Assembly: GCF_015565955.1 (NCBI RefSeq)
Contig: NZ_CP064760.1
Location: 930,001-994,000, forward strand
Direction of reading: 5' to 3'
Origin: Microbacterium schleiferi
Lineage (GTDB): Bacteria; Actinomycetota; Actinomycetes; Actinomycetales; Microbacteriaceae
Length of the DNA: 64,000 nt
Positions 43,129 through 51,047 of this stretch are shown piece by piece (within the stretch, counting starts at the first letter, position 1; each line of letters begins with the position of its first letter). The position numbers and the translations under genes were made by a program. Under the pieces are notes generated by a model. It had not been told where the DNA came from. It saw nothing but the letters and a program-made list of their open reading frames with translations, and searched no databases.

Positions 43129-45399
43129 TCACACTCCCGCGTGGAAGGTGCGGCTGATCACGTCGAGCTGCTGCTCGCGCGTGAGGCGGACGAAGTTGAC
43201 GGCATAGCCGGAGACCCGGATGGTCAGTTGCGGGTAGTTCTCCGGGTTCTCCATCGCGTCCTCGAGCGTCTCGCGGGAGAGCACGTTGACGTTGAGGTGG
43301 TATCCACCGGCGGCCATCTGGGCATCCAGCAGTCCGACGAGGTTGGTCACGCGCTCCTGCTCCGTCCGACCCAGGCCCGCGGGAACCACGGTCGTCGTCA
43401 GCGAGATGCCGTCCTGCGCCTGCTCGAACGGGAGCTTGGCGACCGAGAGGGTCGCGGCCAGCATCCCGTGCGTGTCCCGTCCGTTCATGGGGTTGGCACC
43501 CGGGGCGAAGGGAGCGCCGGCGCGGCGTCCGTCGGGCGTGTTACCCGTGGCCTTTCCGTAGACGACGTTGGAGGTGATGGTCAGCACCGACTGCGTGTGA
43601 ACCGCGTTCCGGTACGTCGGGTGGGTGCGCAGCATCTCCATGAACTCGGTCATGAGCTCGCGGGCGATGTCATCGACCCGGTCATCGTCGTTGCCGTAGA
43701 CCGGGAACTCCCCGTCGACGAGGTAGTCGACGACGAGACCCGTCTCATCACGCACCGGTGTGACCGTCGCGTACTTGATCGCCGACAGGGAGTCGGCTGC
43801 CACCGACAGTCCGGCGATGCCGCAGGCCATCGTGCGGAGCACCTCACGGTCGTGGAGAGCCATCTCGAGCCGCTCGTACGCGTACTTGTCGTGCATGTAG
43901 TGGATGCAGTTCAACGCGTCGACGTAGGTCGCCGCGAGCCACTCCATCATCGTTCGGAACTTTGTCCGCACGTCGTCGTACTCGAGGACATCTCCTGCCA
44001 CCGCGGGCATGACCGGTGCGATCTGCTTTCCGGTGACCTCGTCACGCCCGCCGTTGATGGCGTACAACAGCGTCTTGGCGAGGTTCACGCGGGCGCCGAA
44101 GAACTGCATCTGCTTGCCGACGCTCATCGGGGAGACGCAGCATGCGATCGCCGCGTCGTCGCCGCACAGGCCGCGGATGAGGGAGTCGGACTCGTACTGG
44201 ATCGAGGAGGTGTCGATTGAGACCTTCGCGCAGAACTCCTTGAATCCCTCGGGCAGATCATTGGACCACAGCACCGTGAGGTTCGGTTCGGGCGCGGGAC
44301 CCAGGTTGTACAGGGTCTGCAGGAACCGGAACGCGGTCTTGGTCACCAGGGTGCGCCCGTCAACGCCCGTGCCCCCCAGCGACTCGGTCACCCAGGTCGG
44401 GTCGCCGGAGAACAGGGCGTCGTACTCGGGCGTGCGCAGGAACCGCACGATCCGAAGCTTGATGACGAGGTCGTCGATGAGTTCCTGCGCCGCGGTTTCG
44501 TCCAGGATGCCGGCGGCAAGGTCCCGCTGGATGTAGACATCCAAGAACGCGGTGTTGCGCCCGAAGCTCATCGCCGCGCCGTTTTGCTCCTTCACAGCGC
44601 CGAGGTAGGCGAAGTAGAGCCACTGCAGAGCCTCGCGGGCGTTGGCGGCGGGACGCGCGATGTCGTAGCCGTAGGACTCGGCCATGCGCGTAAGTTCCTG
44701 CAGCGCGCGGATCTGCTCCGCGTTCTCTTCCCGGTCTCGGATGATGTCCTCGGTCGAGAAGTGCATGTCGAGCTCGGCGTGCTCGGCCTTCTTCGCGTCA
44801 ATGAGTGCCGTCGTGCCGTACAGCGCAACGCGGCGGTAGTCGCCGATGATGCGACCACGACCGTAGGCATCCGGCAGCCCCGTGATGAGGTGACTGCTGC
44901 GAGCACGACGGACAGCGGGAGGGTAGACGTCGAAGACGCCGTCGTTGTGGGTCTTGCGGTAGGTCGTGAAGATCTTCTCGAGATCCTGGGGCACCTCGTA
45001 GCCGTAGGTTTCCAGGGCTCCCTTGACCATCCGCCAGCCGCCGTACGGCATGATCGCGCGCTTGAGCGGCGCATCCGTCTGCAGACCCACGATCAGCTCG
45101 TCCTCGCGGGCGATATAGCCCGGCGCGTGCGCGGTGATCGTCGAGGGGGTGGTGGCGTCGACGTCGTAGACGCCACGCTCGCGTTCGGCGGGGAACATCG
45201 CCGTGAGCGTCTGCCAGACGCGCTGCGTGCGCTCGGTCGCGCCCGTCAGGAACGACGCATCACCGCCATAGGGGGTGTAGTTGCGCTGGATGAAATCGCG
45301 GACGTCGATGGCATCCTGCCAGGGGCCGGCGACGAATCCATCCCAGGCCGCGGGGATCGCGTCAGCCTGGTCGACGGGGGTGGGGGTGACGGTGCTCAT
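43129..45399 (-). CDS. pflB: Formate C-acetyltransferase (pyruvate formate-lyase)
   Basis: A 756-residue glycyl-radical enzyme converting pyruvate and CoA to acetyl-CoA and formate. The two active-site cysteines are adjacent in [12 protein letters not shown] (about residue 415), and the radical glycine is in [10 protein letters not shown] (Gly about 731 of 756, as in E. coli). ATG 45399 follows AAGGAGAT, a strong ribosome site. PFL allows mixed-acid fermentation. It is notable in a group often thought of as aerobic. Tandem operator-like palindromes lie about 140-180 bases upstream. Confidence 0.97.
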
Positions 45400-47592: not shown

Positions 47593-48909
47593 GTGGATCT
47601 GGTCGCCTTCATCGTCGGTGTCGTCGTGCTCGTGGTGGGCCTGGCGATCTCGATCGCGCTGCATGAGATCGGTCATCTCGTTCCTGCGAAGCGCTTTGGG
47701 GTGCGGGTCGGCCAGTACATGGTTGGTTTCGGACCCACGCTGTGGTCACGTCGCCGAGGTGAAACCGAGTACGGCGTGAAGGCGATTCCTCTGGGCGGCT
47801 ATATCTCGATGGCGGGGATGTACCCGCCCTCGCCGGCGGCCCGCGGTGCGGCGGACGGTTCCGGGGCGCCGGGTCGAGCGGGCGGCGGCTTCTTCGCAAC
47901 GATGGTCCAGGACGCCCGCGCGGCCAACGACGAGACGCTGGATAGTGCCGACGACAACCGCGTCTTCTACCGGCTGCCGGTCTACAAGCGCGTCATCATC
48001 ATGCTCGGTGGTCCGCTCATGAACCTCGTGTTCGCGCTCGTGCTGATGACACTCGTGCTCAGCGGCATCGGTGTGCAGACTGTGACGAGCACCGTCGCGT
48101 CGGTAAGTGCCTGTGTTCCCGCGCAGGCTGCGCAGGAGTGCCAGGCAGGCGATCCGCCCTCACCGGCAGCGGCAGCAGGCATCCAACCCGGTGACGTCAT
48201 CGTGTCGGTTGACGGTCAGGACGTCGCGGACTTCGCCGAGGCTGCAACGCTCATCCAGGCGGCACCGGGTCAGAGCGTGCCGATCGTGGTCGATCGCGAC
48301 GGCCAGAGCGTGTCCCTCACGGTGACGCCCGACACCGTGACCCGTCAGATCGTGGATGAGAACGGCCAGACCGTCGACTCGGAGGTCGGGGTCATCGGCG
48401 TCACGGGGACGGTCGACTACGTGCGTCAACCGATCTGGTCGGCTCCGGTCGCGGTCGCTGAGAACGTCGGCGCCGTTGCCGGGCTCGTCGTGCAGCTTCC
48501 GGTGAAGGTCTACGAGACTGCCGCGACGCTCGTGACGGGTGAGCAGCGTGATCCCAACGGTCTGCGAAGCATCGTCGGCGCCGGCGCGATCGCCGGGGAG
48601 GTCGCCGCAACCGATGCGCCCGTCGTGAACCGGGTGGCCGTCATCCTGTCGCTCCTGGCAGCGCTGAATATCTCGCTGTTCGTGTTCAACCTCATCCCGC
48701 TGCTGCCGCTGGACGGCGGGCACATCGCCGTCGCGCTGTGGGGCGGCATCCGCAGCTGGTGGGCGCGGGTGCGTGGCAAAGCCCAACCCGCTCCGGTCGA
48801 TGCGACCAAGCTCGCGCCGCTGACCTTTGTCGTGGTGATCGCCCTGGTCGTGATGGGCGGCATTCTGATCATCGCCGATCTCGTGAACCCGATCTCCCTC
48901 TTCGGTTGA
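47593..48909 (+). CDS. rseP: Site-2 protease RseP (M50B)
   Basis: A 438-residue intramembrane zinc metalloprotease that cuts anti-sigma factors and leftover signal peptides. TM1 holds ALHEIGHLVPAKRF (HExxH, about 24-28), a periplasmic PDZ domain spans about 190-265 (GIQPGDVIVSVDGQDV), and the last part carries NLIPLLPLDGGH with the third zinc ligand. An extra loop after TM1 (PPSPAARGAADGSG) is Pro/Ala/Gly-rich. In actinobacteria it is usually followed by ispG as here, though a 2-kb PhzE-type gene on the other strand and a 2TM gene intervene. Confidence 0.93.
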   Translation: MDLVAFIVGVVVLVVGLAISIALHEIGHLVPAKRFGVRVGQYMVGFGPTLWSRRRGETEYGVKAIPLGGYISMAGMYPPSPAARGAADGSGAPGRAGGGFFATMVQDARAANDETLDSADDNRVFYRLPVYKRVIIMLGGPLMNLVFALVLMTLVLSGIGVQTVTSTVASVSACVPAQAAQECQAGDPPSPAAAAGIQPGDVIVSVDGQDVADFAEAATLIQAAPGQSVPIVVDRDGQSVSLTVTPDTVTRQIVDENGQTVDSEVGVIGVTGTVDYVRQPIWSAPVAVAENVGAVAGLVVQLPVKVYETAATLVTGEQRDPNGLRSIVGAGAIAGEVAATDAPVVNRVAVILSLLAALNISLFVFNLIPLLPLDGGHIAVALWGGIRSWWARVRGKAQPAPVDATKLAPLTFVVVIALVVMGGILIIADLVNPISLFG

Positions 48910-48924: not shown

Positions 48925-50850
48925 TTACGCGGGGCCGAGGGCCCACGCGATGAGTTGGTGCAGCGTGGCCATTCCGTCGCGCGAGAGGATCGATTCCAGG
49001 TGCCCCTGCACGGAAGCGAACCCCGCACCACGCAGGGCATAGACATCGCCGGTCGCCGGGTCAGCCGCGATTTCCACACCCGCGATCGTCGTCCCGGGGG
49101 TGCTGCGCGCCGTGAAGGTGTTGTAGAAACCGATCGAGGCCGGCTGCCCGAAGACATCGACCGTCAGCTGCAAGCCCTGGTGGGGTTGCGCCAACGGAGC
49201 GAGCTCGATACCGAGTTCGCTGGCGAGGATCTGGTGGCTGAGGCACACCGCGAGCAGCGGGGCGGATGCTGCCCGCCGCCGCGCGATGATCTGCCGCAGG
49301 CGCGCCATCCGTGCCGAGGCGACATCGAGCGGATCGCCGGGGCCGGGGCCCGAGACGAGCAGCTCTGCCGCGTCGACCTCGTCGTCGGTGACGGCGTCCC
49401 AGGGGACGATGGAGACATCCAGGCCCAGATGGCTCAACTGGTGCGCGAGCATCGTGGTGAAGCGATCCTCGGCGTCAACGACCAGCGCGCGACGCCCCGC
49501 GAACGGGCCGGAACCGGTTGGAGCCTGAGGATTCAACCAGAACGGCGCGAGCCGCGCGTTGCGCGATTCCAGCAGCGCGGCGATCGTCGGATCGTCAGCC
49601 AGGCGCCGCGGCTCCGGCGTCGGCGCGTCCTCGTCGAGGGAGAGTGCCTCCGGTCGGGCCCCGCGCGGGATCGCTCCGATAGCGCCCAGCACCCCCGCGG
49701 CCTTGCCGTGCGTTTCGCTGACCTCGCCGTACGGGTCCGAGTGGCGCACGAGGGTCGCGCCGACGGGCACCCGAAGCCGGCCGTTCTCGATGTACGCCGT
49801 GCGGATGAGGATCGGGGCGTCGAGATCGTGGGTGACGGCATCTGATGCGGCGCCGGGCACGATATCTGTGCGGGGCGTGAACAGGGCAGCGACTCCGGAG
49901 TAGTACCCGCGCGGCGTCGTCTCGTGACGGGTGATCACCGTACAGGCGTTCTGCATGGGGGAGCCGGTGACCGTCGGTGCGAACATCGTTTCGCGCAGGA
50001 TGTCGCGGGGGTCGAGTCTGCTCGAGCCCCGCAGCATGTACTCGGTGTGCGTGAGTCGGGACATCTCCTTGAGATGCGGACCGGTGATGCGCCCACCGTC
50101 GGTGCACACGGCGCTCATCATCTTGAGCTCTTCGTCGACGACCATGAACAGTTCCTCGGTCTCCTTCGTGGAGCGCAGGAACTCACTGAGGTTGTCGACG
50201 GTGGCCCCTTCGTCCGGGTGACGGAACGTTCCCGAGATCGGATTCATCGTGACGATGCCGGCCTCGGCGCTGACGTGTGCCTCGGGGCTCGCCCCGACGG
50301 CGATGTGATCGGCGGTCACGACAGCGAACGTCCAGTAGGCGCCGCGCTCGTGCTCGAGCAGGGCCCGGAACCAGGCCAACGCTGCGACGCGCGGGTCCGC
50401 GTCGACGTCAGCCGTGAAGTCACGACGGATGACGAAGTTGGCGCCTTCGCCGCGTCCGATTTCGTCGGCGATGACGCGGCGGACGATGTCGGCGTACGCC
50501 TCGTCGTCGATGTCGAAACCGGCGTCCCGCAGCGGGATGTCATCGTGCGGGAGAACCGCCAGAGCCTCGTCACGCGGGTAGGTGGCACGCTCCGTGATGA
50601 CCAGGCACCGCAACGGGGCGTTGTCATCGAGGCAGGCGAATCCGCGCTCGCGGACCTGGCGGAAGGGAACGAGCGCGAGCACCTCGCGCGGCGTTCCATC
50701 GGTTGCCAGCAACGGAATGTCCCGCAGCAGTTCCACGTCGACGATCTCGCCGGTGAGCACCTCCACCGTGTCGGCATCGCGGGCGAGGATCGCGAACGGG
50801 AGGTCGCTGGTTGCGAGCCCAGCGAGCGGGGGAAGCAGGGTGCCGGTCAT
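48925..50850 (-). CDS. Fused anthranilate synthase, PhzE type
   Basis: A 641-residue chorismate enzyme with its glutamine amidotransferase in one chain. Residues 1 to about 410 are the synthase (MNPISGTFRHP, ETEELFMVVDEELKMM, LTHTEYMLRGSSRLDPR, GYYSGVAAL). Residues about 445-641 are the GATase: Cys in AVCLSHQILA and the His-Glu pair in QGHLESIL. The order and motifs match PhzE (aminodeoxyisochorismate synthase) and similar fused TrpEG proteins. The trp-type attenuator in front says its product feeds tryptophan or a tryptophan-sensed pathway. No phenazine gene is nearby. ATG 50850 follows GAAAG. Confidence 0.85.
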   Translation of the reverse strand: MTGTLLPPLAGLATSDLPFAILARDADTVEVLTGEIVDVELLRDIPLLATDGTPREVLALVPFRQVRERGFACLDDNAPLRCLVITERATYPRDEALAVLPHDDIPLRDAGFDIDDEAYADIVRRVIADEIGRGEGANFVIRRDFTADVDADPRVAALAWFRALLEHERGAYWTFAVVTADHIAVGASPEAHVSAEAGIVTMNPISGTFRHPDEGATVDNLSEFLRSTKETEELFMVVDEELKMMSAVCTDGGRITGPHLKEMSRLTHTEYMLRGSSRLDPRDILRETMFAPTVTGSPMQNACTVITRHETTPRGYYSGVAALFTPRTDIVPGAASDAVTHDLDAPILIRTAYIENGRLRVPVGATLVRHSDPYGEVSETHGKAAGVLGAIGAIPRGARPEALSLDEDAPTPEPRRLADDPTIAALLESRNARLAPFWLNPQAPTGSGPFAGRRALVVDAEDRFTTMLAHQLSHLGLDVSIVPWDAVTDDEVDAAELLVSGPGPGDPLDVASARMARLRQIIARRRAASAPLLAVCLSHQILASELGIELAPLAQPHQGLQLTVDVFGQPASIGFYNTFTARSTPGTTIAGVEIAADPATGDVYALRGAGFASVQGHLESILSRDGMATLHQLIAWALGPA

Positions 50851-50889
50851 GGTCGGTCTTTCGTCGTGGGGCGGCCACCCTCACAAAGA

Positions 50890-50909
50890 AGACCGCCCGG
50901 GGGCGGTCT
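50890..50909 (-). terminator. Attenuator terminator of the anthranilate synthase gene
   Basis: On the - strand AGACCGCCC and GGGCGGTCT form a 9-bp stem with a 2-base gap, followed by TCTTTGTG. It lies between the leader peptide stop and ATG 50850. Its left arm can instead pair with GGCGGT of the preceding segment. Confidence 0.75.
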
Positions 50910-50933
50910 ATGCGTCAACGCGAGCACACCGCC

Positions 50934-50969
50934 TCAGACGGTGGGCCACCATGCGGTGCTCGCGAACAT
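50934..50969 (-). CDS. trp-type leader peptide MFASTAWWPTV
   Basis: An 11-codon ORF from ATG 50969 to TGA 50934 with two consecutive Trp codons (TGG TGG). Its RNA can fold as CGCGAGCAC/GTGCTCGCG (stem 1:2; + strand 50956-50964 with 50919-50927), as GGCGGT/ACCGCC (2:3; 50928-50933 with 50902-50907), or as the terminator 3:4 (50890-50909). This is the standard ribosome-mediated attenuator: stalling at Trp codons frees the gene, fast translation stops it. A GATAGT box 8 bases before the ATG suggests a leaderless leader. Confidence 0.8.
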   Translation of the reverse strand: MFASTAWWPTV

Positions 50970-50977
50970 GGGCCGAA

Positions 50978-50983
50978 ACTATC
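50978..50983 (-). promoter_or_regulatory. -10 box for the trp-type leader transcript
   Basis: GATAGT on the - strand lies 8 bases before ATG 50969. The -35 is weak. Confidence 0.35.
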
Positions 50984-51035
50984 ACAGCGCCGGACCGACG
51001 CGCGGAGTGTCTAGTGCTCGGGGCCCTGCTCGCAA

Positions 51036-51041
51036 TACATT
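51036..51041 (+). promoter_or_regulatory. -10 box for the 2TM gene
   Basis: TACATT lies 6 bases before ATG 51048, leaderless spacing. Confidence 0.5.
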
Positions 51042-51047
51042 CGAGAC

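Follow-up and report, generated by a model that had tools for sequence, protein, structure and literature searches.

The fused gene and its leader region

A short leader ORF, the arms of three possible stems and a gene for a fused anthranilate synthase (TrpE-TrpG, hereafter TrpEG) lie in this order on the minus strand of the window, which is the whole 64-kb stretch of DNA that was analysed. The leader ORF, with hairpins and a U-rich tail behind it, lies 83 nt upstream of the fused gene (50850..48925). The features are as follows.

50976..50981, minus strand: -10 promoter box TAGTTT, read from the sequence, 6 nt ahead of the leader ATG
50934..50969, minus strand: leader peptide ORF trpL, MFASTAWWPTV, from sequence and conservation
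50946..50951, minus strand: tandem Trp control codons TGG TGG, invariant columns in the 41-sequence alignment
50953..50964, minus strand: segment 1, pairs with segment 2 (fold and covariation alignment)
50919..50933, minus strand: segment 2, pairs with segment 1 or, via GGCGGT, with segment 3 (folds and alignment)
50902..50909, minus strand: segment 3, the 5' arm of the terminator, of which 50907..50902 also pair with segment 2
50883..50897, minus strand: segment 4, the 3' arm of the intrinsic terminator (50897..50890) with the U-rich tail (fold and terminator scan)
48925..50850, minus strand: fused anthranilate synthase TrpE-TrpG, 641 aa, with Chorismate_bind at 116-383 and GATase at 456-632 (Pfam)

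The codons of trpL, read from 50969 to 50934, are ATG TTC GCG AGC ACC GCA TGG TGG CCC ACC GTC TGA. The first-pass annotation had described a complete trp-type attenuator with this leader peptide and its two adjacent Trp codons, and the sequence, the folds and the comparison with relatives all confirmed it. The TAGTTT box (50981..50976) was absent from that annotation, and its distance of 6 nt from the ATG suggests leaderless translation.

The 1:2 stem comprises 9 bp (CGCGAGCAC/GTGCTCGCG, 50964..50956 with 50927..50919), a length that 4% of 200 shuffled versions of the 3' arm also reached, and it appeared in the minimum-energy fold in a nearly identical bulged form. The 2:3 stem comprises 6 bp (GGCGGT/ACCGCC, 50933..50928 with 50907..50902); both lengths agreed with those first proposed. 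The terminator had been given as 9 bp and was corrected to 8 bp, because the longer version would leave a loop of 2 nt. This 3:4 stem (AGACCGCC/GGCGGTCT, 50909..50902 with 50897..50890) encloses a 4-nt loop and is followed by TCTTTGT, and a terminator scan returned the same hairpin as the fold. The whole leader folded into the 1:2 hairpin and the 8-bp 3:4 terminator (z = -2.81, 3 of 200 shuffles as low). An RNA starting just past the Trp codons folded instead as the 2:3 antiterminator; in this fold the last part of the leader pairs additionally with the 3' arm of the terminator. Three mutually exclusive stems in the textbook order, as originally described, were thus all found, and the folds of the whole and the shortened RNA alternate between them. 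A short ORF with TGGTGG, a stop codon and a terminator occurred in combination only once on both strands of the window, and the same combination was seen in none of 200 windows simulated with an order-2 Markov model (both strands) and in none of 40 single strands.

The nearest genes scanned around trpEG encode an M50 peptidase, a 2TM protein, IspG and a Mur ligase. The fused gene is followed by a convergent gene (47593..48909, plus strand) and is therefore a single-gene unit. Positions 50982-51047 form a short divergent intergenic region common to the trpL promoter and the plus-strand gene of the 2TM-domain protein. Elsewhere in the window, 43129-45399 (minus strand) encodes a pyruvate formate-lyase-like glycyl radical enzyme in Microbacterium (PFL-like 693.6 bits, Gly_radical 119.2 bits).

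Conservation and covariation of the leader

Comparison of the leader in related genomes, which had been suggested as a check, showed that the short ORF with tandem Trp codons is conserved and that the complementarity of the terminator stem is kept. The Trp-Trp leader was present in 57/57 loci with enough upstream sequence from sampled Microbacterium genomes (58 loci, one of them cut at a contig end), in 78/78 such loci from named actinobacteria (80 loci, two of them cut) and in 17 of 18 further Microbacteriaceae loci, by a more lenient count that allows every possible start codon. The named set is mostly Microbacterium and also spans Agromyces, Plantibacter, Jiangella, Blastococcus, Embleya, Kitasatospora, Kutzneria, Streptomyces and others, and it overlaps in species with the genus sample. 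The single exception, L183, lies in a 1.4-Mb Microbacteriaceae genome and encodes a TrpEG with the proline at the marker position described below; attenuation was apparently lost in this small genome.

A TAnnnT box stood 6 or 7 nt ahead of a possible leader start in all leader-bearing loci of the three sets (57/57, 78/78 and 17/17) and in 74/74 non-redundant leaders. The same spacing was found in four of six loci from the wider order, chosen because the covariance model matched them, and not in the other two. No Shine-Dalgarno-like site was found among 135 leaders. In Streptomyces lividans, according to the accessible part of the source, the mean distance between -10 box and start site is 6.3 nt, and trpL1 (MFAHSTRNWWWTAHPAAH) is leaderless and precedes a monocistronic trpE (PMC8079986). 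The spacing of 6 or 7 nt therefore fits a leaderless transcript.

Covariation was assessed in an alignment of 41 Microbacterium-type leaders out of the 74 non-redundant ones. The other 33 were removed by hand, namely 29 from outside Microbacterium and four Microbacterium leaders with unusual spacing (L027, L050, L058 and L101). The terminator helix was 98.5% paired with five both-side changes, and its covariation score was equalled in none of 500 shuffles. The 1:2 structure covaried in part. Overall it was 71.6% paired; its outer helix of seven pairs was 82.5% paired, three of these pairs had changed on both sides and the covariation score was equalled by 5 of 500 shuffles, while the number of both-side-changed pairs in 1:2 was not above chance (404 of 500 shuffles as high). 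The inner pairs were poorly kept (63.8% for helix 3, 25.6% for one pair). In single relatives, the best 1:2 helix had a mean length of 7.0 against 5.4 after shuffling, and in many of them it was no longer than in shuffles. The 2:3 helix was 96.3% paired and showed no covariation signal in these 41 leaders, because it is nearly invariant. Such near-invariance is expected of an arm used by two alternative helices, yet it provides no positive evidence for them.

The Rfam model RF00513 (Trp_leader) matched at the right place and on the right strand with 21.8 bits (E = 0.045), below its gathering threshold of 41. With our own covariance model, no second copy of the attenuator was found in the genome: the next best matches scored 21.5 bits against 92.2 bits here, the latter being high by construction since the window was included in the model, and one of the two 21.5-bit matches was the opposite strand of the same hairpins. 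A scan across the order returned matches in 107 of 198 genomes at E <= 0.01. Because these were mostly weak and only 17 of the 35 kept loci hold TrpEG (two of the 17 being this window), the scan was not used to describe the distribution.

A different kind of leader was noticed by eye on the minus strand in the middle of three loci from other families of the order. L207, L209 and L211 carry Ile-Ile near the leader end (VAHQAHTQLIIG, VAHHWHTQLIIC and MSVATATVIID), followed by a hairpin, a U run and then a gene; in L207 this gene is HMGL-like and includes a LeuA-dimer domain. The L207 gene is a candidate citramalate synthase-like gene, and the three leaders are candidate isoleucine attenuators.

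Identity of the fused enzyme

The first-pass annotation had called the gene PhzE-like and proposed that a phenazine-type enzyme stands under tryptophan control. The fused Chorismate_bind and GATase domains are indeed a feature shared with PhzE/ADIC synthases. The best solved relative of the protein was 3r74 (512 bits, aligned over residues 27-637), which carries the PDB name anthranilate/PABA synthase component I and which we take to be PhzE of Burkholderia. Among the best 120 of 8000 matches, many orthologues are named PhzE or phenazine-specific and others anthranilate synthase family protein; this list was kept out of the tree because its members, where named, are near relatives. To this extent the likeness to PhzE stood, whereas the clade, the neighbours and residue 346 place the protein with the actinobacterial TrpEG enzymes.

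For comparison, 16 of 33 plasmid-borne relatives were fetched; these are the PhzE-type loci. By annotation, an isochorismatase gene stands immediately upstream in 13 of them, and 7 have PhzA/B, PhzF or PhzG nearby; L233 is without annotation, and L235 is without isochorismatase or phz neighbours. A Trp-Trp leader was absent from all 16. When 51 proteins were placed in a tree, a branch with support of 100/99 separated the 16 PhzE-type proteins from the 34 leader-bearing ones and L183, the leader-bearing side including Streptomyces and Kitasatospora; the program warned of long branches (L231, L232, L183 and L235) and odd composition. Among the genes nearest to trpEG, there is no phzD-type isochorismatase, DAHP synthase, phzF or phzG. 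A profile search for the PhzA/B family gave no match in the genome. The same search matched none of 14 control genomes, and a positive control was therefore added, in which three of three phenazine-type plasmids were matched. Phylogeny, neighbourhood, the PhzA/B search and residue 346 thus speak against tryptophan control of a phenazine-type enzyme, and the gene probably has no phenazine function. Identity with TIGR01815 (TrpE-clade3), presumably the rhizobial type of fused TrpE, was rejected as well, the score being 121.1 bits against a curated cut-off of 739.15; it represents a different fusion lineage.

Under the limits set, residue 346 was the sole alignment column that separated the two groups, with proline in 34 of 35 proteins on the leader-bearing side and alanine in all 16 of the PhzE type; proline was found in 128 of the 129 TrpEG loci that have this stretch. 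The residue adjoins the chorismate-binding IRTA motif. Alanine occupies the aligned place both in 3r74 and in the solved canonical TrpE 5cwa, so pyruvate removal does not in general require proline. Why PhzE stops at ADIC is not evident from the sequences, according to the accessible part of PMC5958127. Judged from its position, Pro346 could help to decide between anthranilate release and a stop at ADIC, or else be only a clade marker; it is a marker and not proof of mechanism.

Furthermore, we searched the genome (3.3 Mb, one contig, 95% complete by estimate) for trpE and trpG, as had been recommended. Three chorismate-binding (PF00425) proteins were found, namely TrpEG, a PabB-like protein and an isochorismate synthase-like protein (232.9 bits against an NCBIfam cut-off of 224.75). 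The PabB-like protein scored 320.0 bits, just under the NCBIfam pabB cut-off of 328.4, and 267.1 bits with the trpE model, whose cut-off is 517.7. A separate TrpG/PabA-type glutaminase is present (TIGR00566, 175.9 against 121.05 bits; L004, the one GATase match of this genome that was classified) and is expected to serve PabB. Because the PabB-like protein stays below its cut-off and this glutaminase exists, some anthranilate from the pair is possible.

TrpE was not found in the genome, nor in the slot between hisI and trpC, while trpD, trpC and trpB are present. The gene order at the trp locus is hisG, a His_biosynth gene, hisI, Trp_oprn_chp, a small ORF, trpC and trpB. In the ten best-scoring TrpE loci of Microbacteriaceae, hisI and trpC flanked trpE in every case, and no Trp-Trp ORF was listed in the hisI-trpE gap, as judged from positions. 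At trpB (1560212-1561353 of the genome; L074, 418-1887), the family match is spread over two frames and breaks near profile position 342 of 385, towards the 3' end of the gene; this could be either an assembly indel or a real frameshift.

Of 59 sampled Microbacterium genomes, this one included, 58 carry the fused gene, a few copies being in pieces or with an internal stop; the lone genome without it (G044) is split over 650 contigs. TrpEG occurred in 20 of 150 sampled Microbacteriaceae genomes, of which 8 are without TrpE (both Microbacterium genomes among them) and 12 have both, which means that TrpEG does not act as the sole anthranilate synthase in every genome. TrpE was counted in 131 of the 150 at E <= 1e-110, a limit picked after viewing the list, as E <= 1e-85 admitted weaker, PabB-level or partial matches. 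The model NF010086 (TrpE) was uninformative as a presence test, being above its cut-off in 0/59 genomes of the genus and also in 0/14 controls. These counts indicate that TrpEG displaced TrpE in Microbacterium, whereas other genera keep both. Six Microbacteriaceae genomes (G073, G078, G119, G131, G158 and G193) showed neither TrpE (E <= 1e-85) nor TrpEG (E <= 1e-60); they may be tryptophan auxotrophs, incomplete assemblies or carriers of a further enzyme type.

The missing TrpE, the presence of trpD, trpC and trpB, and the occurrence in nearly all sampled genomes of the genus strongly favour the earlier suggestion that the gene may be the cell's real anthranilate synthase. The alternative of an unknown anthranilate-derived product is not needed. 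Most likely, as read from these sequences, the gene encodes the anthranilate synthase of the cell and is controlled by ordinary Trp attenuation of the type known from Streptomyces. By clade and predicted product, the attenuator thus controls a tryptophan biosynthesis gene.

Proposed mechanism and relation to known systems

We hold it very probable that a ribosome-mediated transcription attenuator makes the expression of this organism's own TrpEG depend on charged tRNA-Trp. The basis consists of the leader, its stems, their covariation and conservation, the enzyme clade and the absence of trpE from its usual slot, all read at the sequence level. RNA polymerase would start at or beside the leader ATG, and the leader would be read leaderlessly. 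With ample Trp-tRNA, the ribosome would reach the UGA and block segment 2, the 3:4 terminator would form and transcription would stop. When Trp-tRNA is scarce, a ribosome stalled at UGG-UGG, as in the established trp paradigm, would cover segment 1, segments 2 and 3 would pair and trpEG would be transcribed. Without translation, 1:2 and 3:4 would form and transcription would stop. Termination is thus predicted to depend on both tryptophan and leader translation. The fused TrpEG, with anthranilate rather than ADIC as its predicted product, would be the anthranilate synthase of the tryptophan pathway, replacing the separate TrpE in Microbacterium. In a wider scenario, to which we give little probability, Microbacterium lost trpE from an ancestral hisI-trpE-trpC slot, an attenuated leaderless TrpEG took over, and residue 346 could set the product.

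A true PhzE-type ADIC synthase, controlled by tryptophan so as to divert chorismate to a phenazine or another secondary metabolite, would account for 3r74 as the best solved relative and for the many PhzE or phenazine-specific names among the best 120 of 8000 matches. However, on this reading no recognised anthranilate synthase would remain in the cell despite the kept trpD, trpC and trpB, and the M50 peptidase, 2TM, ispG and Mur ligase neighbourhood and the PhzA/B search offer it no phenazine genes. The plasmid loci of the PhzE type, with their upstream isochorismatase and no leader, fall in the other clade, and a gene carried by nearly every sampled genome of the genus also argues against this reading, which we regard as very improbable.

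Slightly less improbable, though still quite unlikely, is a leader whose main effect is exerted on translation or through Rho-dependent termination, as has been suggested for terminator-less actinobacterial leaders. Some actinobacterial amino-acid leaders are without obvious intrinsic terminators, as the accessible part of PMC1262725 describes; against this, the GC-rich 8-bp hairpin with its U-rich tail is kept and covaries, the tail being short and interrupted (TCTTTGT). That a short ORF and hairpins came together by chance has a negligible probability. Hairpins are common in a GC-rich genome, and the 1:2 stem alone does not exceed shuffles in every relative, but the simulated windows did not reproduce the combination, and conservation and covariation in relatives already refute chance. 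Transcription attenuation of TrpEG remains the preferred reading.

The Microbacterium case is a Streptomyces-type trp attenuator, an already known kind, ahead of a fused anthranilate synthase: tidy but ordinary. Through it, the attenuator known from Streptomyces is now also documented in Microbacteriaceae, with support from covariation. The new points are minor, namely the clean displacement of TrpE by fused TrpEG in one genus and a residue that tells two fused enzyme classes apart. In addition, a common database label is corrected, as the PhzE and phenazine-specific names on Microbacterium proteins wrongly suggest phenazine production.

No literature on attenuation of a Microbacterium anthranilate synthase was found, as judged by title. 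Lin, Paradkar and Vining (1998) reportedly described a trp attenuator in front of an anthranilate synthase gene of Streptomyces venezuelae; the attenuated gene is presumably the fused one, and a fused S. venezuelae enzyme is named in a paper title. The Rfam Trp_leader family shares the order of elements with the Microbacterium leader, which differs in its score below gathering, its leaderless start and its single gene in place of an operon. Tryptophan-dependent attenuation is experimentally supported in Corynebacterium glutamicum and S. venezuelae, according to the accessible parts of PMC4833913 and PMC1262725. TIGR01815 proteins share the fused domains with TrpEG and are likewise classed as anthranilate synthases, at a score of TrpEG far below the cut-off. 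PhzE (solved as 3r74-3r76) likewise shares the fused chorismate-binding and glutaminase domains, whereas TrpEG belongs to a different clade, is without phz neighbours, has proline instead of alanine at residue 346 and is preceded by a Trp leader. The S. lividans trpL1-trpE region, as far as described in the accessible part of PMC8079986, combines a leaderless short ORF, tandem Trp codons, two hairpins, a uridine-rich stretch and a monocistronic gene; its leader has three Trp codons in 18 residues, compared to two in 11 in Microbacterium. In Streptomyces locus L153, a leader of the same kind (MFAQTTQNWWWTAHPAAR) also precedes the fused gene; unlike Streptomyces, Microbacterium apparently has no anthranilate synthase other than the fused enzyme.
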